Part shown: one piece after another, positions 1,172 through 50,848 of the stretch
How positions within the stretch are numbered: the stretch's first letter is position 1
How the letters are laid out: each line of letters opens with the position of its first letter
Source: Parvibaculum sp.
Lineage (GTDB): Bacteria; Pseudomonadota; Alphaproteobacteria; Parvibaculales; Parvibaculaceae
DNA: 64,000 nucleotides
Assembly: GCA_030645235.1 (NCBI GenBank)
Contig: JAUSMV010000030.1
Location: 1-64,000, forward strand
Reading direction: 5' to 3'
Notes under the pieces: generated by a model
Seen by the model: the letters and a program-made list of their open reading frames with translations, nothing else
What the model was told of the DNA's origin: nothing
Databases searched by the model: none
Made by a program: the position numbers and the translations under genes

Positions 1172-1397
1172 GGAGCGGCTCCTCTTAAAGGGGGGGGTGG
1201 TCTATATGTGGTGATGGTTGGGATGAATTACAACGCACATCCTTAGTCCTCTCCCCCTCCTTCCTGTTCGCGCCTACGCGCGATGTGAGGGGGAGGTAAG
1301 GGAGCGGGGTGAACCGCGAGTTCGGAACGTGAGGCATGTCCTTTCCTTAACCTCCCCCTTGTGGGGAGGTGAAGGTGAAGGGTCTTGCTTACTCTAC
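1172..1397. other. Intergenic region rich in short G/C-biased palindromes
   Basis: No gene seen. The stretch holds degenerate palindromes, including CCTCCCCCTTGTGGGGAGG near 1350-1368, and a partial copy of the dispersed CTCTCCC repeat from about 1243. The oligo-G run near 1190-1198 lies just upstream of the Rmf-like gene on the other strand. Confidence 0.5.
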
Positions 1398-1548
1398 AAC
1401 CCTCCCCTTGAGGGAGGGTCAAAAAATCATCTTTGATTTTTTGGGGCGGGGGAACGAAAGCCACCGCAAGCTCAGAACCAGACGAGAGACCGCGCCCCCG
1501 CCCCAAACGGCGAAGTCGCCGTTTGACCCTCCCACAAGGGGAGGGTTC
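1398..1548 (+). repeat. ~150-bp palindromic repeat, left flank of type IIG gene
   Basis: Boundaries are CCCTCCCCTTGAGGGAGGGT on the left and the related CCCTCCCACAAGGGGAGGG on the right. Inside are two hairpins: AAAAAATCA-TC-TTTGATTTTTT type at 1420-1442 and AAACGGCGAAGTCGCCGTTT at 1505-1524. A copy in the opposite orientation lies at 5232-5383, with the two hairpins in reversed order, on the other side of the restriction-modification gene. No ORF or transposase is present; it resembles a REP/MITE-like element. Confidence 0.8.
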
Positions 1549-1637
1549 TAAAACTAGGAGGCCCCCCTCCCCTTGACCTATCGCCCTATCTCGTCATGCT
1601 CTGCACAAAGCCATTCTGGTTAAAAAACGGGGGACGC

Positions 1638-4600
1638 GTGAGCGAGGGCGGAGACAAGAGCGGCAAGGCGGTCGAAGCCTTCATCGCGAAGTGGGAAAAG
1701 TCCGGCGGCTCGGAACGCGCCAATTATCAGCTTTTCCTGACCGAACTCTGCGATCTCATCGGCGTCAGCAAGCCCGACCCCGCGCAAGACTCCAATCAGC
1801 ACAATGACTATGTCTTCGAACGCTCCGTCATGTTCAAACATGACGATGGCACAACCACGACCGGCTTTGCCGATCTCTACAAACGCAACAGTTTCGTCCT
1901 CGAAGCCAAGCAGAGCAGCAAGCGCGATGCCTTGCGCAAAACAAATGCCGATCAGCTCGCTCTCATTCCCGAAGACAAACAACAGGTCAAATCCGGCACA
2001 GCCAAACGCGGCACCGGCGGCTGGGACACGTCCATGCTCAAGGCGCGTCGTCAGGCCGAAAGCTATGCCAAAGCTTTGCCCAAAGAGCATGGCTGGCCGC
2101 CCTTCCTCGTCGTCGTCGATGTCGGCCATTGCATCGAGCTTTATGCCGACTTCGCCCGTCAGGGCAAAAACTACGCACAGTTCCCCGACAGGCGCGGCTA
2201 CCGCATCATGCTCGACGATCTGCGCGATGCGGACATTCGCGCCCGCCTCGCCCTCGTCTGGTCCGACCCGCTCGCACTCGATCCGGCCAAAAAATCCGCC
2301 GAGGTCACACGCGACATTGCCGAGCGCCTCGCCAGAATTGCCAAAGCGCTCGAAGCGCGCGGCCATGACGCGGGCAAGGTCGCAGAGTTTCTGATGCGCT
2401 GCCTTTTCACCATGTTCGCCGAAGACGTGAAGCTGCTCCCCGAAGGCTCCTTCACCAAACTGCTCGAACTGATGAAGGACACACCGGCCAAATTCCGCTT
2501 TGCGCTCGAAGACTTGTGGAAGGCAATGAATGCAGGCGGCTATACCGGCACGATCAATGATGTCGTCAAGCGCTTCAACGGTGGCCTCTTTGCAGACCCG
2601 CAAGCGATTGCACTTGAACCCGACGAAATCCACGAACTCTTCGTTGCCGCACGCCGCGACTGGCGCGATGTCGAACCCGCGATTTTCGGCACCCTGCTCG
2701 AACGTGCGCTCGACGCCCGCGACCGCCACAAGCTCGGCGCGCATTACACGCCGCGCGCCTATGTCGAGCGCCTCGTCGTGCCCACCATCATCGAGCCGCT
2801 GACGGACGATTGGAAAATCGTGCAGGCCGAAGCCGAGCAACTGATGAACACCGGCAAGCAAGCCGAAGCCCGCGCCGCTGTGCGCAAGTTTCATCAACAA
2901 CTCTGCGCCACCCGCGTGCTTGATCCTGCCTGCGGCACCGGCAACTTCTTGTACGTCGCCATGGAGCTGATGAAGCGCCTCGAAGGCGAGGTGCTGGACT
3001 ATCTGAGCGACCTTGGCGAAGAGCAATATGTGCTCGAAATGTCTGACCACACGGTCGATCCGCACCAGTTTTTGGGACTTGAAATCAATCCGCGTGCGGT
3101 GCAAATCGCAGACCTCGTGCTCTGGATCGGCTTCATCAAATGGCAGATCAGAACCGGCGGCCAAAACGCCATTTCCGAACCCATCCTCCGCGCGTTCGGC
3201 AATATCAAAGAACAAGATGCTGTGCTGGCCTACGACAAGCGCGAATTGCAGCGTGACGAGCACGGCAAGCCCGTCACGCGCTGGGACGGCTTCACAATGA
3301 AGAAGCATCCGGTCACAGGCGAAGACGTGCCGGACGATACGGCGCGCACCGAGCTTTACACCTATTCAAAACCCCGCGCCGCGACTTGGCCGCGGGCGGA
3401 GTTCATCGTCGGCAACCCGCCTTTTATTGGCAATAAGCGGATGCGCGAATTGTTGGGTGATGGTTATGTTGAAGCAGTGCGTGAAAGCCTTCCAAAGGTG
3501 GCAGGTTCGATTGATTTTGTGATGTATTGGTGGGATCACGCGGCCAAATTGTTACGCTCCAAAAAAATACGTCAGTTTGGCTTTATCACCACGAATACAA
3601 TAACGCAGACATTCAACCGCACCGTGACGGAAGAATATATAACTGCTGCTAAAGACCGAATTTCACTGAAGTTTGCCATTCCAGACCACCCTTGGGTGGA
3701 CTCCAGCAATGGCGCGGCGGTACGGATTAGCGTGAGCGTCGCAGCTAATGGAGAGCATGTTGGAGTCTTGAATCTCATCAAGAATGAAACGTGGTCGGAT
3801 GAAACCGACGGTGCCCATGTAGATTTCGTTTCGTCCGTCGGAAAGATCGACTCCTCATTCCGTATCGGAGTCGATTTAAGTTCGGTGAGCGGGCTATTCG
3901 CTAATGAAGATTTGTGTTGGCAGGGCTGCAAGCTTGTAGGAAAGAATTTTCAAATATCGCCAAAACTTCACTCCGAGTTTGTGGCCGGAGATCCCGACAG
4001 CAAAAAAATTATGCCGAGATACTGGGCAGGAAGCGATCTCACACAAAATTCAAATGAAAGATATGTTATCGATTTTACGGGGCTTGAAGAATCAAGCGCG
4101 AGAGAAGCACATCCGCATCTTTATCAGCACCTCTTCGATTATGTGCGGCCGGAACGATTGCAAAATAACGATCGAGGTTTTCGTGAAAACTGGTGGTTGT
4201 TCGGTCGCAGACGACCCGATATGCGAACGGCGTTGAACGGGTTGGACCGATACTTGGCAACAAGTGAAGTATCAAAGCATCGTTTTTTTAGTTTTTTGTC
4301 TTGGCCATCAGACTTAGTTGATGGTTCGGTAGTTGTTATTGCGCATTCAGACGCTTGGGTTTTGTCCGTAGCTTCCTCAAAGATTCATATTAAATGGACC
4401 TTGGCGGCAGCAGGGACACTCGAAGACAGGCCGCGATACCAAAACCAAATGTCGTTCGATCCCTTCCCCTTCCCCGTTCCCACTGACGCGTTGAAATCCG
4501 AACTCCGCGCGCTCGGCGAACGTCTCGACGCCTTCCGCAAAGAGCGTCAAGCCGAGCATCCCAATCTCACCATGACCGGCATGTATAATGTGCTCGAACG

Positions 4601-5144
4601 CCTGCGCGAGTTGGATGCCAATCCTGATGCTGCTCCGCTCACGGACAAAGAACGCCTGATCCATGAGCACGGGCTTGTCTCCGTGCTGCGCCAAATCCAT
4701 GATGAGATCGACGCCAAGGTCTTTGAGGCCTATGGCTGGCCCGCTGATCTTAGTGACGAGCAAATCCTTGAGTACCTCGTTGCCCTCAACAAGACCCGCG
4801 CCGAAGAAGAAAAACGCGGCCTCGTGCGCTGGCTCCGTCCCGATTATCAGATCCCGCGTTTCGCCAAAGGTGTTGTGGCCGAAGAACAAGTCGAAGCCGA
4901 CCTCGAAGCGCCCGTGCTCGCGGCCAAGGCACCGAAATGGCCCGACAAGCTTATCGACCAGATCAAAGCCGTGCGCGACGAATTGCATCGCGCCTCGGGA
5001 CCGCTTTCCTCTTCCGACCTGTCACGCAGTTTCAAAGGCGGCAAAAAACGCGAAGAGAAAGTCGCCGAGCTTCTGGAAATCCTCGCCTCCAACGGCCTCG
5101 TCCAAACGGATCAGGGCCGCTACTTCATGGCCGATAAGGGGTAG
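1638..5144 (+). CDS. MmeI-like type IIG restriction-modification enzyme
   Basis: A single polypeptide combining endonuclease, adenine methyltransferase and target recognition. From the GTG start chosen here (1168 residues) the order is: N-terminal PD-(D/E)XK nuclease with D79-x9-E89-A-K91 (motif GFADL...VLEAK, spaced as in MmeI), helical spacer, N6-adenine methyltransferase with motif I DPACGTGNF (about 429-437) and motif IV NPPF (about 593-596), a target-recognition region (about 610-940) and a C-terminal extension ending in a winged-helix-like stretch. An upstream ATG (1596) lacks a ribosome site; the GTG has GGGGGA close upstream. It has no partner genes. Bases about 3420-4440, covering the recognition region, are clearly more AT-rich than the rest. 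Homology to BREX PglX is limited to the methyltransferase. Confidence 0.85.
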   Translation: MSEGGDKSGKAVEAFIAKWEKSGGSERANYQLFLTELCDLIGVSKPDPAQDSNQHNDYVFERSVMFKHDDGTTTTGFADLYKRNSFVLEAKQSSKRDALRKTNADQLALIPEDKQQVKSGTAKRGTGGWDTSMLKARRQAESYAKALPKEHGWPPFLVVVDVGHCIELYADFARQGKNYAQFPDRRGYRIMLDDLRDADIRARLALVWSDPLALDPAKKSAEVTRDIAERLARIAKALEARGHDAGKVAEFLMRCLFTMFAEDVKLLPEGSFTKLLELMKDTPAKFRFALEDLWKAMNAGGYTGTINDVVKRFNGGLFADPQAIALEPDEIHELFVAARRDWRDVEPAIFGTLLERALDARDRHKLGAHYTPRAYVERLVVPTIIEPLTDDWKIVQAEAEQLMNTGKQAEARAAVRKFHQQLCATRVLDPACGTGNFLYVAMELMKRLEGEVLDYLSDLGEEQYVLEMSDHTVDPHQFLGLEINPRAVQIADLVLWIGFIKWQIRTGGQNAISEPILRAFGNIKEQDAVLAYDKRELQRDEHGKPVTRWDGFTMKKHPVTGEDVPDDTARTELYTYSKPRAATWPRAEFIVGNPPFIGNKRMRELLGDGYVEAVRESLPKVAGSIDFVMYWWDHAAKLLRSKKIRQFGFITTNTITQTFNRTVTEEYITAAKDRISLKFAIPDHPWVDSSNGAAVRISVSVAANGEHVGVLNLIKNETWSDETDGAHVDFVSSVGKIDSSFRIGVDLSSVSGLFANEDLCWQGCKLVGKNFQISPKLHSEFVAGDPDSKKIMPRYWAGSDLTQNSNERYVIDFTGLEESSAREAHPHLYQHLFDYVRPERLQNNDRGFRENWWLFGRRRPDMRTALNGLDRYLATSEVSKHRFFSFLSWPSDLVDGSVVVIAHSDAWVLSVASSKIHIKWTLAAAGTLEDRPRYQNQMSFDPFPFPVPTDALKSELRALGERLDAFRKERQAEHPNLTMTGMYNVLERLRELDANPDAAPLTDKERLIHEHGLVSVLRQIHDEIDAKVFEAYGWPADLSDEQILEYLVALNKTRAEEEKRGLVRWLRPDYQIPRFAKGVVAEEQVEADLEAPVLAAKAPKWPDKLIDQIKAVRDELHRASGPLSSSDLSRSFKGGKKREEKVAELLEILASNGLVQTDQGRYFMADKG

Positions 5145-5168
5145 GCGGATGAATTTTCAACCCTGAAA

Positions 5169-5225
5169 GTCCTCTCCCGCTTGCGGGGTCGCTCTTGGGC
5201 GACGGTTGGGTGAGGGTCTTACTTT
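5169..5225 (+). repeat. Dispersed palindromic repeat, 'CTCTCCC' family
   Basis: Begins GTCCTCTCCCGCTTGCGGGG and ends GGTTGGGTGAGGGTCTTACT, the same ending as the copy at 882-925. It lies just after the restriction-modification gene. Confidence 0.65.
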
Positions 5226-5231
5226 TTCTTA

Positions 5232-5383
5232 GAACCCTCCCCTTGAGGGAGGGTCAAACGGCGTCTTCGCCGTTTGGGGAGGGGGAACGAAGGTCAATGC
5301 AAGGCCGTGCTTTGACGTCAGACCGCGACCCCGCCCCAAAAAATCAAAGATGATTTTTTGACCCTCCCTCAAGGGGAGGGTTC
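5232..5383 (-). repeat. ~150-bp palindromic repeat, right flank of type IIG gene
   Basis: Reverse-oriented copy of the element at 1398-1548. The AAACGGCGTCTTCGCCGTTT hairpin is now on the left (about 5255-5275) and the AAAAAATCAAAGATGATTTTTT-type hairpin on the right (about 5338-5359), both bounded by CCCTCCCCTTGAGGGAGGGT-type ends. The spacing from the gene's stop (87 bp) is similar to the spacing of the left copy from the GTG start (89 bp). Confidence 0.8.
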
Positions 5384-5412
5384 GGGTTCAAGTGGGGAAA
5401 TAAAATTTTTTC

Positions 5413-5568
5413 GCCTCTATCCCCGCCCGGGAATTATATTTATTTTCACCTCACGCGACACTCATCGAGCAAGACACCAATCTCTGCATGGAAACCTCGA
5501 ATCTCTTGCAAGAAATGCAGACTGCGTCGAGCTTCATGTCGAGCCAAAACCCCTGCTTATCCCCGCCC
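5413..5568 (+). repeat. Diverged ~150-bp element (copy A), shared with 50696-50848
   Basis: Layout: CTCTATCCCC at about 5414, then ATGGAAACCTCGAATCTCTT at 5488 (identity with the other copy runs 28 bp from this ATG, ending TGCAAGAA), then TTATCCCCGC near 5556. The tract spacings are about 70 bp on each side. Copy B keeps all three blocks at nearly the same spacing. No function is recognised; the rest of the 5145-5594 intergenic region holds the repeats listed separately. Confidence 0.6.
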
Positions 5569-5594
5569 TGCACGACTCGTGTTAGGACCGGAAC

Positions 5595-7205
5595 TCAGAG
5601 CGAAAACACCGCACCGCTCCGTGTACTGAGTATCACTTTTGCGCCCTCGCGCACCACCTCGCCGACCGACACATCCGTCGCATGGGCGGACGCCGGCAAG
5701 GCGCATGTCACCTCCTCGCGGCTCAGATTGAAAAGGCAAAGCAATGTCTCACCACCACCGACGCGCCGGAAGGCCAGCACCTTCTCATCAACACCATCGA
5801 CAAATTCAATCTCGCCCGTCACCAGCGCGGGATGACGTTTGCGTGTCGCGATGATGTGTTTGGCATGGACCAGCACCGATGCGCCGTCATGCTCCTGCGC
5901 GTCCGCTGTGCGATTGCGATGATAGTCCGGGATCGGCAGCCACGGATCGCCGCTCGTGAAACCCGCCTCATGTGCATCCGGTTTCCACGGCATCGGTGTG
6001 CGGCAGCCGTCGCGTCCTTTGCCGTATGGAAAATACAAATCGCCGACAGGGTCTTTGAGCCACTTGCGTTCAATGTCCACGTCGGGCAGTCCGAGTTCTT
6101 CGCCCTGATACATCAGCGCCGTGCCCTTCAGTGTAAGGAGCAGCGTGAGGGCGAGCTTTGCGAGCGCGTCGTCGCCTTGTCTGCCGCCCCAGCGTGTGAC
6201 GGGTCGCACGATGTCGTGATTGGAAAAGGTGACGCAGGGCCAAAGCTCGGTGAGCGGCTTCAATAATTCTTCATAGTATTTTCTGAACACAGCGGGTTTG
6301 AAAGAGCGGTCCTCCAAAAAGTCAAACGTATAGCCCGTATGCAGACGTTCCTTGCCGCCCGCATAAAGACCAAACATCGACGGCTCTTCCGAGAACTCAC
6401 CAAAGGCAAGGCGGTCTTCATATTCATCCATCACCTTGCGCACGCGCTTCATCGACCATTCGTTTTCCGGCGTGTTCGCATCATGGATATGTTGTTGCAA
6501 ACGCGGCGCGTGGCTCCAGTGCAGCGCCGTGCGTTCCGCCATCGGCACCGGCGGATTGTCGGTGAGTTTGGGGTCATGCACATAGGAGTTTGCCACGTCC
6601 AAACGGAACCCATCGACGCCGCGGTCGAGCCAGAAACGCAGTACGTCCATGCAGGCATCGACGACTTGCGGGTTGTGAAAGTTCAGCTTTGGTTGGCTTT
6701 TCAGGAACTTGTGAAAGTAATATTGCCGCCGCACCGGATGCCATGACCAGGCCGCGCCGCCAAAGGCCGCGAGCCAGTTGTTCGGCGGCGTACCGTCCTC
6801 GCGCGCGTCCTGCCAGACATACCAATCGGCTTTCGGATTTGTTTTTGAGAGCAGGCTTTCCTGAAACCATTTGTGCTGATCCGACGAATGGCTCAGCACC
6901 TGATCCATGATGACCTTCAACCCGCGCTGATGCGCTTGCTTCAGCATATGATCGAAGTCCGCCATCGTTCCCATTTCAGGTCCGATGTCGCAATAGTCCG
7001 AGACGTCATAGCCGAAGTCGCGATTGGGTGAGGGGTACACGGGCGACAACCAGATCGCATCGACGCCGAGCGCCGCGATGTAATCGAGTTTCTGTTCAAT
7101 GCCTTTCAGGTCGCCGATGCCGTCGCCGTTGCTGTCGCGGAAGCTGCGCGGATAGATTTGATAGACGACCGCGCCTTGCCACCAGGGCGTTGATTTTTCG
7201 GACAC
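5595..7205 (-). CDS. Alpha-glucosidase, GH13 family
   Basis: This 536-residue cytoplasmic hydrolase (no signal peptide) should release glucose from the non-reducing end of alpha-glucosides. The N-terminal (beta/alpha)8 barrel starts WWQGAVVYQIYPRSF. Catalytic residues are visible: nucleophile D203 in DGFRLDVAN, acid/base E270 in AFGEFSEEP and D331 in FSNHD. The length and the long B domain fit the oligo-alpha-glucosidase branch rather than amylases. GTG start at 7205 with AAGGGAG upstream. It lies 29 bp downstream of the Sir2 gene on the same strand, so the two may be co-transcribed, although no metabolic link is obvious. Trehalose synthase or sucrose-type hydrolases are alternatives within GH13. 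Confidence 0.9.
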   Translation of the reverse strand: MSEKSTPWWQGAVVYQIYPRSFRDSNGDGIGDLKGIEQKLDYIAALGVDAIWLSPVYPSPNRDFGYDVSDYCDIGPEMGTMADFDHMLKQAHQRGLKVIMDQVLSHSSDQHKWFQESLLSKTNPKADWYVWQDAREDGTPPNNWLAAFGGAAWSWHPVRRQYYFHKFLKSQPKLNFHNPQVVDACMDVLRFWLDRGVDGFRLDVANSYVHDPKLTDNPPVPMAERTALHWSHAPRLQQHIHDANTPENEWSMKRVRKVMDEYEDRLAFGEFSEEPSMFGLYAGGKERLHTGYTFDFLEDRSFKPAVFRKYYEELLKPLTELWPCVTFSNHDIVRPVTRWGGRQGDDALAKLALTLLLTLKGTALMYQGEELGLPDVDIERKWLKDPVGDLYFPYGKGRDGCRTPMPWKPDAHEAGFTSGDPWLPIPDYHRNRTADAQEHDGASVLVHAKHIIATRKRHPALVTGEIEFVDGVDEKVLAFRRVGGGETLLCLFNLSREEVTCALPASAHATDVSVGEVVREGAKVILSTRSGAVFSL

Positions 7206-8482: not shown

Positions 8483-9478
8483 GTGATTTTTTTTCGCGAC
8501 AGAGGTAATCCGGATGATGACGCGGTCACGGATCTTTCCGCAACGGAATTTCCGGCGCATGTCATCTGGGTTGACATGTTCAATCCGACGCCTGACGAGG
8601 TGCAATTCATCGAGCGTCTGACATCGCTCCATTTGCCCAATCATGAAGACCTGAAAGAGATCGAGTCTTCAAGTCGCCTTTATACAGAGAGCGGCGCACT
8701 ATTCATGAGCTCACCGCTTGTCGCAAATGCCGGAACCAGTTCGCCGGAAGTCTCTCCCGTCGGTTTCATTCTGACGCGCAAAGTGCTCGTCACTATTCGC
8801 TATGCAGAGTTTTCATCCTTCGCAACCTTCGTTCAAACGCTCGCCAAAGATGATGTCTGCCACTATTCAAGCGTCGGCGCGGTTGCCGGTTTGCTGGACG
8901 CTATCATTGATCGTATGGCCGACGTTCTCGAAAATGTCGGCGAAGATCTCGCCGTACTTTCGCGCCGTACGTTTCGCGGCGATCATTTGTCCGCGACAAA
9001 ATCGCGGGGCACCTCCAGAGAGAACGCCGACATGCGCGTCATCCTTCGTCGCATCGGACGCGCGGGTGATCTGCTTTCAACCATCCGCGACAGCCTTCTC
9101 GGTGTTAGTCGCATGATCGGTTATGTCGGCGGGCTTGCGGAAGAGTGGACACCAACCGATGTCAAACCTTATATCAAGTCATTGCGCGAGGATGCCGTTT
9201 CGCTCAATGACTATGTCGGTCACCTGAACAACAAAGTGCAACTCCTGCTCGACGCAACGCTCGGCCTCATTAACATCGAACAAAACAACATCTTCCGCAT
9301 TTTGACGATTGTGTCTGTGGTCGGCATACCGCCCACCCTCGTCGCCAGCATGTACGGGATGAACTTCAAGTTCATGCCGGAGCTCGATTGGGCGTGGGGT
9401 TATCCGTGGGGACTTGGGCTCATCGCCATCAGCGCAATCATTCCGCTCGTTTGGTTCAAACTACGCGGCTGGAGTTGA
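8483..9478 (+). CDS. corA: CorA family divalent cation transporter
   Basis: This 331-residue inner-membrane protein has the CorA plan: a large cytoplasmic alpha/beta and helical domain, then two C-terminal membrane helices, with YGMN (the pore signature) at the end of the first. It should carry Mg2+ (or Co2+/Ni2+) as a pentamer. The GTG start follows gloA by 6 bp. Its last 18 bases overlap the end of the convergent ratA gene, leaving no room for a separate terminator. ZntB-like export is possible, since the family is not separable by eye. Confidence 0.9.
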   Translation: MIFFRDRGNPDDDAVTDLSATEFPAHVIWVDMFNPTPDEVQFIERLTSLHLPNHEDLKEIESSSRLYTESGALFMSSPLVANAGTSSPEVSPVGFILTRKVLVTIRYAEFSSFATFVQTLAKDDVCHYSSVGAVAGLLDAIIDRMADVLENVGEDLAVLSRRTFRGDHLSATKSRGTSRENADMRVILRRIGRAGDLLSTIRDSLLGVSRMIGYVGGLAEEWTPTDVKPYIKSLREDAVSLNDYVGHLNNKVQLLLDATLGLINIEQNNIFRILTIVSVVGIPPTLVASMYGMNFKFMPELDWAWGYPWGLGLIAISAIIPLVWFKLRGWS

Positions 9479-9925
9479 TGTCACAAAACGCTTTTCGGCT
9501 TCGTCAATGAAGGCTTGCATCATGCGCGAAAAGGCCTTGGCAAATACACCGTTCATCATCTTCTGAAGCATCAATGAGCGGAATTCAAAATCAATATAGA
9601 AGTGAATACGACATCCACCATCGGGCAACTCTTCGAACTGCCACTTGTTGGCAAGATACTTGAACGGTCCCTCAACATAATGAACATCAACCAGGCGTTC
9701 GGGTTTATTCAACGACACACGGCTCGTAAATTGCTCGCGGAACATTTTGTAAGCGACGATCATATCGGCGGTCAGCACTTCGTTCCCGCCTTCGACCTCG
9801 CGTTTGCGAATGCGGCAAGCGGCACACCACGGCAAAAATTCAGGGTAATGCTCAATACCCGCCACGAGCGAAAACATATCGTCAGCCGTGAAAGGCACGT
9901 CGCGCGTTTGTTGAGTGGCCGCCAT
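9461..9925 (-). CDS. RatA/COQ10-type START-domain protein
   Basis: This 154-residue protein of the polyketide-cyclase/START superfamily resembles RatA and mitochondrial Coq10, with the family start RDVPFTADDMFSLVAGIEHYPEFLPWC. Members bind ubiquinone or related lipids; E. coli RatA was described as a ribosome-association toxin, while the alphaproteobacterial and mitochondrial proteins are linked to coenzyme Q function. Its ATG lies 2 bp after the lipA stop, so it is probably translated from the lipA mRNA. The 3' end overlaps corA on the opposite strand. Confidence 0.85.
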   Translation of the reverse strand: MAATQQTRDVPFTADDMFSLVAGIEHYPEFLPWCAACRIRKREVEGGNEVLTADMIVAYKMFREQFTSRVSLNKPERLVDVHYVEGPFKYLANKWQFEELPDGGCRIHFYIDFEFRSLMLQKMMNGVFAKAFSRMMQAFIDEAEKRFVTSTPAA

Positions 9926-13703: not shown

Positions 13704-14981
13704 TCACAGCAACATCGAGGGCGGATACTCGACGTAAGTCTTAAACGCCTGCAGGAACGTCGCGCCGAGCGCACCGTCAATTGCGCGGTGATCACAGGAC
13801 ATGGTCACAGTCATCATCGTGGCGACTTCCAATTTACCGGCCTTCACCACAGCGCGTTCAACACCACGCCCGACGGCGAGGATCGCCGCTTGCGGCGGGT
13901 TGATGACAGCTGTGAAATTATCGATACCGAACATGCCGAGATTGGAGATCGAAAAGCTGCCGCCTTCAAACTCTTGCGGCTTCAGCTTCTTCGTGCGTGC
14001 GCGCTCGGCGAGCGATTTTGCTTCGGCGGAGATTTCAGCCAGACCTTTGCTTTCAGCATGACGGATGATCGGCGTGATAAGCCCACCTTCAATCGCGACA
14101 GCGATACCGACATCGGAATGCTTGTGCTTCAGCAGCGCATTGCCTGCGAAGCTCACATTAGCATCCGGCACTTTGGCGAGCGCCAACGCGGCGGCGCGGA
14201 TAAGGAAGTCATTGACGGAGAGTTTGACGCCGTCTTTGGCTTGCTCGTTCAGCACTTTGCGCACTTTGATAAGTTCATCGAGTTCGCAATCAATACTGAG
14301 ATAGAAATGCGGGATCTCCTGCATCGCCTGCGTCAGACGGCGTGCGATAGTCTTGCGCATATTATCGAGCGGCACCTCGTCATAACTACCCGCTTCATAA
14401 AACGCGCGCGGATCGATGGCAGGACCCGAGGCAACCGGCGCTGCCGATACGCCTATGGGTTTCGCTCCGGCTTTTGCGCCTTCGACGTCTGCTTTAACAA
14501 TGCGTCCATGCGGACCGCTGCCGGTGATGCTTGCGAGATCGACGCCTTTGCCTTTGGCGATGCGGCGTGCGAGCGGAGTCGCGAAGAGACGAACGTCGTC
14601 ACCGTTTTTCCCCTCAACCTTTGTTGGTGCCATCGGCGTGGCGAGCGCCGGGCTTGCGGCCTTCTTCACAGGTTCGGCAACCGGAACCGCCGTCTCTTTT
14701 TTTGCTTGTGGTGCAGGCACAGAAGCGCTCGCGTTCTCACCCTCTTCCGCGATGATTGCGATGACAGCATTGACCTTCACGTTCTCGCTGCCTTCCGCGA
14801 CAACGATCCTTATGACTTTGCCTTCGTCCACCGCTTCGACTTCCATCGTCGCCTTGTCGGTCTCAATCTCGGCAATCACGTCGCCGGAGCGCACCTCATC
14901 ACCTTCTTTGATGAGCCATTTGGTCAGCGTGCCTTCTTCCATTGTCGGCGAGAGCGCGGGCATCAATATGTTTGTCGGCAT
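13704..14981 (-). CDS. pdhC: PDH E2, dihydrolipoamide acetyltransferase
   Basis: 425-residue core of the pyruvate dehydrogenase complex. One N-terminal lipoyl domain with the lipoylated lysine in [10 protein letters not shown], an Ala/Pro/Lys-rich linker, a peripheral-subunit binding domain (ATPLARRIAKGKGVDL to GRIVKADV) and a catalytic domain ending in SCDHRAIDGALGA, where the His and Asp are catalytic. It transfers acetyl groups to CoA. It sits 13 bp downstream of pdhB in the pdhA-pdhB-pdhC-lpdA order. Its lipoyl domain is nearly identical to that of PdhB. Confidence 0.95.
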   Translation of the reverse strand: MPTNILMPALSPTMEEGTLTKWLIKEGDEVRSGDVIAEIETDKATMEVEAVDEGKVIRIVVAEGSENVKVNAVIAIIAEEGENASASVPAPQAKKETAVPVAEPVKKAASPALATPMAPTKVEGKNGDDVRLFATPLARRIAKGKGVDLASITGSGPHGRIVKADVEGAKAGAKPIGVSAAPVASGPAIDPRAFYEAGSYDEVPLDNMRKTIARRLTQAMQEIPHFYLSIDCELDELIKVRKVLNEQAKDGVKLSVNDFLIRAAALALAKVPDANVSFAGNALLKHKHSDVGIAVAIEGGLITPIIRHAESKGLAEISAEAKSLAERARTKKLKPQEFEGGSFSISNLGMFGIDNFTAVINPPQAAILAVGRGVERAVVKAGKLEVATMMTVTMSCDHRAIDGALGATFLQAFKTYVEYPPSMLL

Positions 14982-14994
14982 GTCCTTGCTCCCC

Positions 14995-16353
14995 TTAGCG
15001 GTAGCAGACGGCTTTCACCGCCTCTACGACATCTGCGGCGCTCGGCAGCGCGAGTTTTTCGAGATTTGCCGCATAAGGCATCGGCACGTCTTTTTGCGTG
15101 ACGCGCAAGATCGGCGCGTCAAGATAGTCAAATGCCTTGGCTTGGACGGAGGCAGCAATCTCCGCACCAATGCCGCAGACCGGCCATGTCTCTTCAACGG
15201 TGACAAGACGGTTTGTCTTTTTAACGGAGGCGACAATCGTATCGATGTCGAGCGGACGCAATGTGCGCAGGTCGATGATCTCGGCATCGATGCCTTCAGC
15301 CGCCAGTTGCTCAGCGGCCTCAAGACAATAGACGAGCCCGTGGCTGTGTGAAACGAGCGTCACGTCACGGCCTTCTTTCAACACGCGCGCTTTGCCGATG
15401 GGAAGTACGTGATCGTCAATCTCCGGCACATCAAATGTTTTGCCGTAGAGGATTTCGTTTTCAAGAAAGATCACAGGGTTCGGATCGCGGATCGCGGCTT
15501 TGAGCAGACCCTTCGCATCTGCCGCTGAATAAGGCGCGATGACGATGAGGCCGGGAATATGCGCATACCATGACGCGTAGTCCTGGCTGTGTTGCGCGCC
15601 GACGCGCGAGGCCGGACCATTGGGACCACGAAACACGATGGGCGATGCCATTTGTCCACCCGACATATAGCGTGTCTTGGCGGCGGAATTTATGATGTGA
15701 TCAATCGCCTGCATGGCGAAGTTGAACGTCATGAATTCGATGATGGGCCGTAGACCCGCGAAGGCTGCACCGACGCCGAGACCAGCAAAACCGTGCTCTG
15801 TAATGGGCGTGTCTACAACGCGGCGCGGACCGAACTCTTCAAGCAGTCCTTGTGTGACTTTGTAAGCGCCCTGATATTCGGCCACCTCTTCGCCCATGAC
15901 GAAGACAGTATCATCTCGGCGCATTTCTTCGGCCATCGCGTCACGCAAGGCTTCTCGCACCGATTGTGATTTGAATGTGGTACCTGCAGGAAAGTCGGGA
16001 TCAGCAGCGACCACAACTTGCGACGTTTCAACCTTGGTCACTTTCTCGGTTACGATAGGTTTCTCTATCGCAGGCGCGGCCACCTCCGGTGCAGAAACAG
16101 TTTCGCTTTCGCCCTCACCCGCGATCACCGCAATCACTTCATTGACCTTGACGTTTTCGGTGCCTGCGGCCACGACGAGCTTCACGATCTTGCCCTCGTC
16201 CACTGCTTCGACTTCCATCGTCGCTTTATCGGTTTCAATTTCGGCAATGACATCGCCTGAGCGCACGTCATCGCCTTCTTTGACGAGCCATTTGGTCAGC
16301 GTGCCCTCTTCCATTGTCGGTGAGAGCGCGGGCATCAGAATATTTGTCGCCAT
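14995..16353 (-). CDS. pdhB: PDH E1 component beta subunit with lipoyl domain
   Basis: 452 residues from ATG 16353. An N-terminal lipoyl domain (about 1-80, lysine in [10 protein letters not shown]) is fused by an Ala-rich linker to the E1-beta transketolase-like domain (from [14 protein letters not shown]). This lipoyl-E1-beta fusion is characteristic of alphaproteobacterial PDH. With PdhA it decarboxylates pyruvate using thiamine diphosphate and acetylates E2. The start codon lies 2 bp after the pdhA stop; an upstream in-frame start would overlap pdhA. Confidence 0.95.
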
Positions 16354-16355
16354 GA

Positions 16356-17429
16356 TCAAGCCCCCGCAACAGAAAGAGGCGCAATCACATCGGTCCATAA
16401 TTCCGACGGATCAGGCTCAGGGCTTGATTGAGCGAACTCGGCGGCCTCGGCCACAATCGCACGGATATCTTTGTCGATGGTTTTCAATTCGTCTTCTGTA
16501 ACGCCGGCATCCAACAAGCGCACACGCACCTGTTCAATGGGATCGTGCTCCTGGCGCATCTTGGTTACTTCTTCTTTGGCGCGGTATTTCGCCGGATCGG
16601 ACATGGAGTGACCGCGATAGCGGTAAGTTTCCATTTCAAGGATGTACGGTCCCTTGCCCGCACGGCACCATTCCATCGCCTTGGCACCGGCAGCGCGCAC
16701 GGCACGCACGTCCATGCCGTCAACCTGTTCGCCGGGAATGTTGAAGCTCACACCGCGCTTGGAGAGATTGGTTTGCGCTGAGGCGCGAGCGACGGATGTG
16801 CCCATCGCATATTGATTGTTCTCAATCACATAGATGACCGGAAGGCTCCAAAGCTCTGCCATGTTGAAGCTCTCATAGACCTGCCCCTGATTGGCCGCGC
16901 CGTCGCCGAAGAAGGCGAGCGCCACATTTTCGTTGCCGCGATATTTGTTGGCGAAACCAAGACCCGTGCCGATCGGCACCTGCGCACCGACAATGCCATG
17001 ACCGCCATAGAAGGTTTTTTCTATGCTAAACATATGCATCGAGCCACCCTTGCCCTTGGAGTAGCCGCCCGCACGTCCTGTGAGTTCCGCCATCACGCCT
17101 TTGGCGTCCATGCCGCACGCGAGCATATGACCGTGGTCGCGGTAACCGGTGACGATCTGGTCGCCCTTCCGTGCCGCACCCATCAGGCCGACGATGATCG
17201 CTTCCTGACCGATATAGAGATGACAGAAGCCACCGATGAGGCCCATGCCATACATCTGGCCCGCCTTCTCTTCGAAGCGACGAATGAGCAGCATCTCGCG
17301 ATAAGCGCTCTTGTCGTCGTCCAACGTGAAACTACCCGGCGCGTCAGCTTTAACGGGCTTTCGTTTCAGAATTGATTTTGTTTCGGAGGCTTTAGAAGGA
17401 GATTTTTTAGTTGGTTTCTTCGGCGCCAT
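16356..17429 (-). CDS. pdhA: PDH E1 component alpha subunit
   Basis: 357-residue thiamine-diphosphate-binding subunit of pyruvate dehydrogenase. The ThDP motif is [17 protein letters not shown] and the phosphorylation-loop-like segment is [16 protein letters not shown] lysine-rich N-terminal extension (about 35 residues) precedes the domain. The ATG at 17429 is preferred; the longer frame would start at a TTG (17462). It is the first gene of the PDH operon, with a 130-bp gap to ftsB that could hold a promoter, although ftsB is on the same strand and read-through is possible. Confidence 0.95.
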
Positions 17430-25588: not shown

Positions 25589-25953
25589 TGAGAATCTATA
25601 AAGAATTTCACTTCGACGCGGCCCATTTTCTGCCCACGGCACCGGAGGGGCACCCCAACCGGCGCGTGCACGGACACTCATTCAGGGTTGTACTCTGGCT
25701 CGAAGGTCAGATCGATAAAGACACGGGATTGCTCATGCATTTCGAGCGTTTCTTGCAAGAGATCGAGTGTTTCCGAGTAGAGATCGATCATCGCCTGTTG
25801 AATGAAATTGAGGGTCTCGAAAACCCGACGTTGGAACTTATCACCATGTGGTTATGGGATCGATTGAAGCCCACCCTGCCCATGCTCGACCGCATCGAAG
25901 TGCATCGGGCGTCGTGCAATGAAGGTTGCGTCTATGACGGTCCGGACGCGTAA
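25588..25953 (+). CDS. queD: QueD-like 6-carboxytetrahydropterin synthase, atypical active site
   Basis: 121 residues, PTPS/QueD fold. Zinc ligands H13 (DAAHFL) and H28, H30 (VHGHSF) are present. The usual catalytic Cys of the C-x3-HGH motif is Asn24 (PNRRVHGH), confirmed in the DNA as codon AAC. The Glu preceding the C-terminal T-C motif in E. coli QueD (KETC) also appears replaced (RASC). Position in the que operon, with start overlapping the queE stop, argues that it still takes part in converting dihydroneopterin triphosphate to CPH4, but activity by the classical mechanism is doubtful. It could be a distinct clade or rely on another residue. Confidence 0.85.
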   Translation: MRIYKEFHFDAAHFLPTAPEGHPNRRVHGHSFRVVLWLEGQIDKDTGLLMHFERFLQEIECFRVEIDHRLLNEIEGLENPTLELITMWLWDRLKPTLPMLDRIEVHRASCNEGCVYDGPDA

Positions 25954-50695: not shown

Positions 50696-50848
50696 TCTCT
50701 ATCCCCACCTGAGTATTTCGCATTTTTTCGCACCCTCGGAAGCAACCAACGAAAAACCAATGATCTCGACATGGAAACCTCGAATCTCTTGCAAGAAACA
50801 CACGAAATCCGAGCCTCAATGTTGATGGATAAAGTGCCTATCCCCGCT
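50696..50848 (+). repeat. Diverged ~150-bp element (copy B), shared with 5413-5568
   Basis: CTCTATCCCC (about 50696), ATGGAAACCTCGAATCTCTT (50771, identical to copy A for 28 bp) and CCTATCCCCGC (about 50837) lie about 70 bp apart, as in copy A. A 27-codon frame runs from the ATG to TAG, but the downstream sequence is not conserved in frame with copy A. The rest of 50547-50874 is intergenic with a degenerate CTCCCAACGGGAG palindrome near 50640; it holds no gene. Confidence 0.6.

Follow-up and report, generated by a model that had tools for sequence, protein, structure and literature searches.

REPINs and BIMEs, which are linked to RAYT, consist of two inverted hairpin units around a spacer and are found in many intergenic copies. 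The Correia elements of Neisseria are presented, in the portion of PMC3898611 that concerns them, as dispersed sequences of 100-155 bp with 26-bp inverted repeats and without a transposase. The CIR repeats of Caulobacter and Brucella (Chen and Shapiro 2003) are outlined in a passage of PMC2229807 as intergenic sequences of ~110 bp with two inverted-repeat arms, a linker and a GANTC methylation site. Restriction-modification genes flanked by copies of an insertion sequence (IS) were proposed to move as a composite, as stated in an excerpt of PMC3031569. Here we describe two 150-bp palindromic repeats of a Parvibaculum sp., elements A and B, which stand on either side of a gene that its domains place among the MmeI-like type IIG restriction-modification genes. 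They lie in the first 64 kb of a 1.79-Mb contig, which is the whole stretch analysed and is called the window below; the genome (G000) comprises 3.83 Mb in 86 contigs. The three main features, in positions of the window, are as follows.

1398-1547, + strand: element A, a 150-bp palindromic repeat with a predicted cloverleaf fold (AT-rich inner hairpin on the left, GC-rich inner hairpin on the right)
1596-5144, + strand: MmeI-like type IIG restriction-modification gene of 1182 amino acids, assigned by Pfam and phmmer, with a possible alternative start at GTG 1638
5233-5382, - strand: element B, of the same family as A but of another subgroup, with arms inverted relative to A and the core in the same direction as in A

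The most probable account, to which we give a chance of about 70%, is that A and B belong to a dispersed, non-coding and non-autonomous Parvibaculum family resembling miniature inverted-repeat transposable elements (MITEs), and that they lie around an acquired gene as separate insertions, not as the ends of a cassette. Since both belong to a common scattered family, the bracket is most likely no dedicated cassette or switch. Like MITEs, its members are short (~150 bp), end in inverted repeats (about 20-25 paired positions) and are dispersed (at least 45 places), and gaps empty of the element exist at a core locus; the target-site duplication that also belongs to this kind was not found. A repeat family spread over the whole genome can produce a striking bracket on both sides of a defence gene.

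As far as the cited accounts go, the A/B family resembles Correia elements in being short and dispersed with inverted-repeat ends, a likeness in general description; unlike Correia elements, which duplicate a TA target, it showed a duplication in 0 of 17 copies. It shares with the CIR repeats, in the features given for them, that its members are intergenic palindromic repeats of alphaproteobacteria, but three arms are predicted instead of two, and GANTC is at background, occurring in 6 of 32 parsed entries, close to the 18% obtained for random stretches of 150 nt from the window. The inverted hairpin units around a spacer and the many intergenic copies recall what is described of REPINs and BIMEs, whereas the host genome has no match to Y1_Tnp (RAYT), the only transposase class searched for (0 of 1). 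Among the 27 genomes of the genus, Y1_Tnp was matched in one, and that genome has no element match. Like the IS-flanked restriction-modification genes, to the extent that the excerpt describes them, the gene lies between repeats, but A and B have no room for a transposase gene and, as members of a dispersed family, are not equal to each other.

The ends of a composite transposon would be near-identical and mutually closest, which does not hold for A and B: they share 81% identity, against 95% (A) and 99% (B) with copies elsewhere. Among the literature titles listed, none concerned the A/B repeat. The portion of the P. lavamentivorans genome paper considered mentions clustered regularly interspaced short palindromic repeats (CRISPR) and no such repeat, and in the portion of PMC3733652 considered the terms sought occurred in 0 places.

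Structure and dispersal of the A/B family

In element A, an outer hairpin (AACCCTCCCC TTGA GGGAGGGT) is followed by an inner hairpin rich in AT, by a core of 44 nt that lies between GGGGCGGGG and CCCCGCCCC, by an inner hairpin rich in GC and finally by the outer hairpin reversed. Elements of the family are ~150-200 nt long, and their terminal inverted repeats of ~20-25 bp are themselves hairpins. In a repeat search of the window the arms of A and B were mutually inverted, being complementary at 100% over 54 nt and at 95% over 57 nt, and a DNA search of the own genome matched A to B with an E value of 2.7e-32 at 81% identity. The first-pass annotation had taken the two for the same sequence in opposite orientation, which holds for the arms, but the 44-nt cores are co-directional despite the inverted arms. 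When the arms were aligned, the core of B showed an identity to that of A of 0.34 directly and 0.64 reverse-complemented, the maximum of 300 shuffled cores being 0.56. Core direction was as in A in eight of the 17 distinct copies of the genome, as in B in another eight, and unclear in one, indicating two subgroups. A copy 95% identical to A (C58:1213653) lies 1.2 Mb off, and a copy 99% identical to B is C58:957065.

A closed three-armed cloverleaf was predicted for all 31 distinct parsed elements, and for 93 of 310 interior-shuffled sequences. The folded set came from three species, with 17 distinct copies from G000, eight from G016 and six from G002, and the parse required the outer ends, not the arms. 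In G000, 18 of 24 loci were parsed, truncated or variant copies being dropped; two of them (L013 and L015) overlap and are the same copy, so that the 32 parsed entries of the three species represent 31 distinct elements. The G016 set consists of eight two-hairpin loci (7 of 18 small stretches plus L153), and the six G002 copies came from three stretches. The arms of the predicted cloverleaf are, in G000, the AT hairpin, the core stem and the GC hairpin; the G016 elements follow a common plan with different inner hairpins and cores. The predicted single-strand folding energy of A and B gave z about -10 relative to shuffles. The outer hairpins were exact reverse complements in 24 of the 32 entries (23 of the 31 distinct elements), A not being among these. 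Taken as a whole, the analysis gives the outline of an element of Parvibaculum whose predicted cloverleaf fold is conserved.

Inspection by eye of the ends of 24 aligned copies revealed a short CTTC/GAAG tendency, with flanks that otherwise looked unique. Also by eye, the loop of one outer hairpin was replaced by a longer insert with GCGCCTACGCGC or a close variant in L007, L008, L018, L021, L023 and window 1250-1300. This type of loop insert may represent a second modular form of the element.

When the matches of A and B were merged, full and partial copies occupied at least 45 places in the genome, a lower bound because scoring covered 40 of the 62 candidates in one search and 40 of the 68 in the other. 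Counts of the outer hairpin pattern were 46 in G000, 48 in G016, 81 in G002, 1 in G020 and 0 in G001, and the backward control gave 0 in all five. At E 1e-5, A was matched in 21 of the 27 genus genomes, its own included; the matches listed for the others were mostly arms of ~50 nt. Among the matches listed for G020, at least 17 places correspond to the ACCTCCCC-type element found beside queA-tgt, and the empty site treated below is one of these places, yet G020 has a single ACCCTCCC hairpin. It looks as if related species amplified different subfamilies, to judge from the sequences.

The MmeI-like gene, its empty site and the queA-tgt control

The first-pass annotation had stated that the elements flank only an MmeI-like gene, and one long open reading frame, 1596-5144 on the + strand, indeed fills the interval between A and B. 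Its product carries the Pfam domains MmeI_N, MmeI_hel, MmeI_Mtase and MmeI_TRD in one chain, the four domains of MmeI (5hr4), which it matched in phmmer with an E value of 1.5e-40. On the 3' side the gene lies 88 bp from B, and on the 5' side 48 bp from A when counted from ATG 1596 or 90 bp from the in-frame GTG 1638. The nearly equal distances of about 89 and 87 bp given earlier thus agree with the 3' side and, on the 5' side, with the GTG but not with the ATG.

The MmeI-like protein was matched at E 1e-30 in five of the 27 genus genomes (G000, G016, G001, G013 and G014). The G016 protein is 66% identical and of the same length, in G001 the gene is divided between the ends of two contigs, and the matches in G013 and G014 are partial, at 33-40%. 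The two relatives of highest identity, at 66% and 70% (the second partial), are both from Parvibaculum. Near full-length genes are present in three of the 27 genomes including G000 (split in one), with weaker matches in two more, and the gene is accessory. The two contig ends in G001 (L154:1-150 on C2 and L155:1-150 on C4) share the 14-nt motif AATCAATCCACTAG just before the match to the target-recognition domain, and the split may be either an insertion or an assembly break. A scan of the MmeI-like stretches of G013 and G014 for six short motifs found no two-sided bracket; the G013 stretch contained one half-hairpin motif, and three motifs that may form a single variant hairpin lay downstream of the G014 match.

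The nearest relative is G020, as judged by the glucosidase protein (87%; the gene is present in 21 of the 27 genomes). G020 keeps the order corA-like, glyoxalase-like, sirtuin-like, glucosidase, csp, csp without the MmeI-like gene; the cold-shock domain was assigned by Pfam, and the other labels are what we take these neighbours to be. The gap between the gene ends is 518 bp in G020 versus 4.8 kb in G000, and it holds palindromic repeats, of which 57 nt match A at 81% and shorter pieces match the repeat at 1249-1373. The repeat with the 57-nt match also matches a variant at other places in G020. Inspection by eye showed a back-to-back pair of outer hairpins in this gap, with the inner hairpins outside. 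This empty site indicates that the gene was gained in G000 or lost in G020, in a gap that holds repeats. Three further repeats, recognised by eye, adjoin A and B in G000.

1249-1373, strand not assigned: third palindromic repeat, a ACCTCCCC-type variant, to the left of A, with a 49-nt and a 24-nt match to the repeats of the G020 gap
5167-5222, + strand: further short palindromic repeat directly to the left of B, part of an inverted pair found in the window
5384-5440, strand not assigned: short repeat directly to the right of B, similar to a sequence at C55:814290 of G000 (L028) and, over a shorter length, to one in the flank 3' of the G016 gene

Besides A-B, ten gaps of <5 kb were found between neighbouring copies, and the genes in them were given putative labels on sight of their sequences. 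By these labels, eight gaps hold ordinary metabolic or housekeeping genes, one a mixed group, and one no clear gene. We take the ordinary contents to be methionine aminopeptidase with an ABC transporter, a DsbA-like gene with a dehydrogenase, acyl-CoA dehydrogenase, queA-tgt, single or double short-chain dehydrogenases (two gaps), and enoyl-CoA hydratase with a sulfatase or decarboxylase-like gene (two gaps). The mixed gap presumably contains RelA/SpoT-like, ParA-like, hydrolase and CysE-like genes. The RelA/SpoT-like and ParA-like genes overlap by 4 bases (L160:8592-10396, which is C55:768591-770395 of G000) and lie with two other genes between element copies; if these labels are right, this pair is perhaps accessory and defence-related.

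The queA-tgt pair served as a control. Its gene order is the same in G020, where the gaps on the two sides are 59 and 88 bp; in G000 they are 296 and 303 bp and contain one element each. Alignment of the two genomes placed the elements as extra sequence in G000, the right-hand one being a ACCTCCCC-type variant. Because queA-tgt is in place in G020 without the elements, bracketing arises around unmoved genes, and the general rule that bracketing marks accessory genes was ruled out by this control. In two stretches of G002, elements likewise lie between genes that look ordinary.

Related brackets and competing explanations

According to the reading that we prefer, the MmeI-like gene would have arrived in a gap that gathers palindromic repeats, and A and B would be two separate insertions of two subgroups, made before or after that arrival. 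The elements probably spread by means of a trans-acting enzyme. They may secondarily act as transcript ends or as homology for recombination, and possibly they helped the gene to arrive.

Several results weigh against this reading. An MmeI-like gene of G016, at another locus, is also bracketed by repeats of the A/B family, and in a survey of flanks a score of >80 was obtained at 4 of 71 MmeI-like loci versus 2 of 312 control genes (Fisher p = 0.012, at a threshold set after the scores were known). The copies in G000 are clustered, with 11 neighbouring gaps of <5 kb versus 3.1 expected and none of 2000 simulations reaching 11, so that the pairs are not randomly placed. The identity of the inverted cores is modest (0.57-0.68), in some copies barely over the shuffled maximum of 0.56, and at the divergence between G000 and G020 the empty-site alignments give no exact junctions. 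Target-site duplications of lengths 2-9 directly at the ends were found in none of the 17 distinct copies (18 rows), and no mobilising enzyme was found in a search that covered Y1 only. With neither a duplication nor an enzyme, it is only the distribution of the elements and the empty sites that argue for mobility. Some mobilising enzymes leave no target-site duplication.

In G016 the gene (2157-5705) has a full element on its 5' side (1905-2071) and a single outer hairpin of 21 nt on its 3' side (5792-5812), which shares ~27 nt of its left flank with the 5' element. By eye, the core of this 5' element resembles that of another G016 element (L176), and the bracket therefore seemingly did not travel between the species as one piece. 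For the survey, the 500 bp upstream and the 500 bp downstream were compared with each other at related MmeI-like loci, 71 of 80 having enough flank; of the nine excluded, eight had <300 bp of flank on one side at a contig end, and one (L041) had a partial gene at a contig end. The control consisted of 312 single open reading frames from the same loci, called by length only, which replaced an earlier set of 761 spans that overlaps itself. The loci that scored >80 were those of Mycoplana (L099, 165), Acidobacteriaceae (L046, 147), Caulobacter (L068, 114) and G016 (L030, 86), and mismatched upstream and downstream pairs scored at most 32. The repeats of Mycoplana azooxidifex (L099) are found 146 bp upstream and about 400 bp downstream of the gene, less close than in G000. 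Those of Caulobacter sp. 32-67-35 and Mycoplana azooxidifex recur in their own genomes, with 51 and 40 matches, respectively (both strands, the query counted). In the Acidobacteriaceae locus, an 81-bp direct repeat (L046:5806-5886 and 9445-9525) makes the last ~70 bases of the upstream gene recur behind the MmeI-like gene, as if the latter had entered at the end of a gene and left a long duplication.

These brackets bear on a different explanation, in which the repeats, as portable homology or as a favoured site of entry, helped the gene to arrive, single-gene restriction-modification systems entering by recombination between a host repeat and incoming DNA. The bracketed G016 gene at a different locus, with its 5' element resembling another element of that genome, the related repeats in the G020 gap, the flank repeats at 4 of the 71 relatives and the recurrence of the Caulobacter and Mycoplana repeats all point in this direction. 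Nevertheless, the threshold of 80 was post hoc, p became 0.045 without the G016 locus (known before the test) and 0.11 at scores of >40 (4 of 67 MmeI-like versus 7 of 312 control), and the top score of all, 227, belonged to a control gene in L108. Moreover, G001 carries the gene and has no element match at E 1e-5, and elements could equally accumulate after a gene has arrived. We consider assisted arrival rather unlikely on balance; if it were true, the bracket would be meaningful without being a cassette. Somewhat more doubtful is the proposal that host-specific palindromic elements are docking places for type IIG genes, so that unrelated alphaproteobacteria receive MmeI-like genes between repeats of their own; the repeats would then be general-purpose homology for the acquisition of defence genes. 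The excess of repeats around MmeI-like genes is a hint and not a demonstration. If a proper survey bore it out, single-gene defence systems would have a route into chromosomes by way of small palindromic elements.

The first-pass annotation had proposed a mobile cassette moved by an outside transposase, or else an inversion that changes the promoter relations of the gene. In favour of a cassette are the accessory gene, the empty site in G020, the short distances and a bracket in two species, but A and B are of different subgroups with closer relatives elsewhere, and the G016 bracket has only the 21-nt hairpin on its 3' side against a full element on its 5' side. Another pair brackets the unmoved core genes queA-tgt, and no transposase was identified, Y1 being the class searched for. 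We regard A and B as very improbable ends of a composite unit. The annotation had itself held that wide scattering with no link to accessory genes, and no empty site in relatives, would speak against it. The further copies and the mostly ordinary genes in the other close pairs, eight of ten, largely agree with that description, whereas an empty site does exist, with related palindromic repeats and with its neighbours in order, and a second MmeI-like gene, that of G016, has its own bracket. The inversion fared worse. Arms of 54 perfectly complementary nucleotides are long enough in principle for homologous recombination, but the block to be flipped would include the 5' leader of the gene, similar arms occur at tens of other places, no inverted form was seen among the genomes searched, none of which was a second one of the species, and no consensus promoter was found in 1150-1700, a scan that left other promoter types outside; a switch of expression by flipping the gene is hardly credible to us. 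That the elements are kept as transcript ends or messenger RNA stabilisers for the restriction gene would agree with their very stable predicted fold, yet A lies upstream of the gene, the family is genome-wide, and 1150-1700, a range outside which B lies, contained no match to an intrinsic terminator. This role is improbable as the reason for the bracket.

Other features of the window

The whole window gave 0 Rfam matches at gathering score and 0 tRNA genes. Two tandem cold-shock protein genes at 98-304 and 602-808 are 87% identical over 203 nt, and the pair is retained in G020. A 274-nt direct repeat is formed by 14720-14993 and 16092-16365, which are 81% identical and 1372 nt apart. A sequence of 36-39 nt occurs three times, at 5480-5515, 25746-25784 and 50763-50798, with one copy inverted and less similar, and is a candidate for another dispersed repeat or a binding site.

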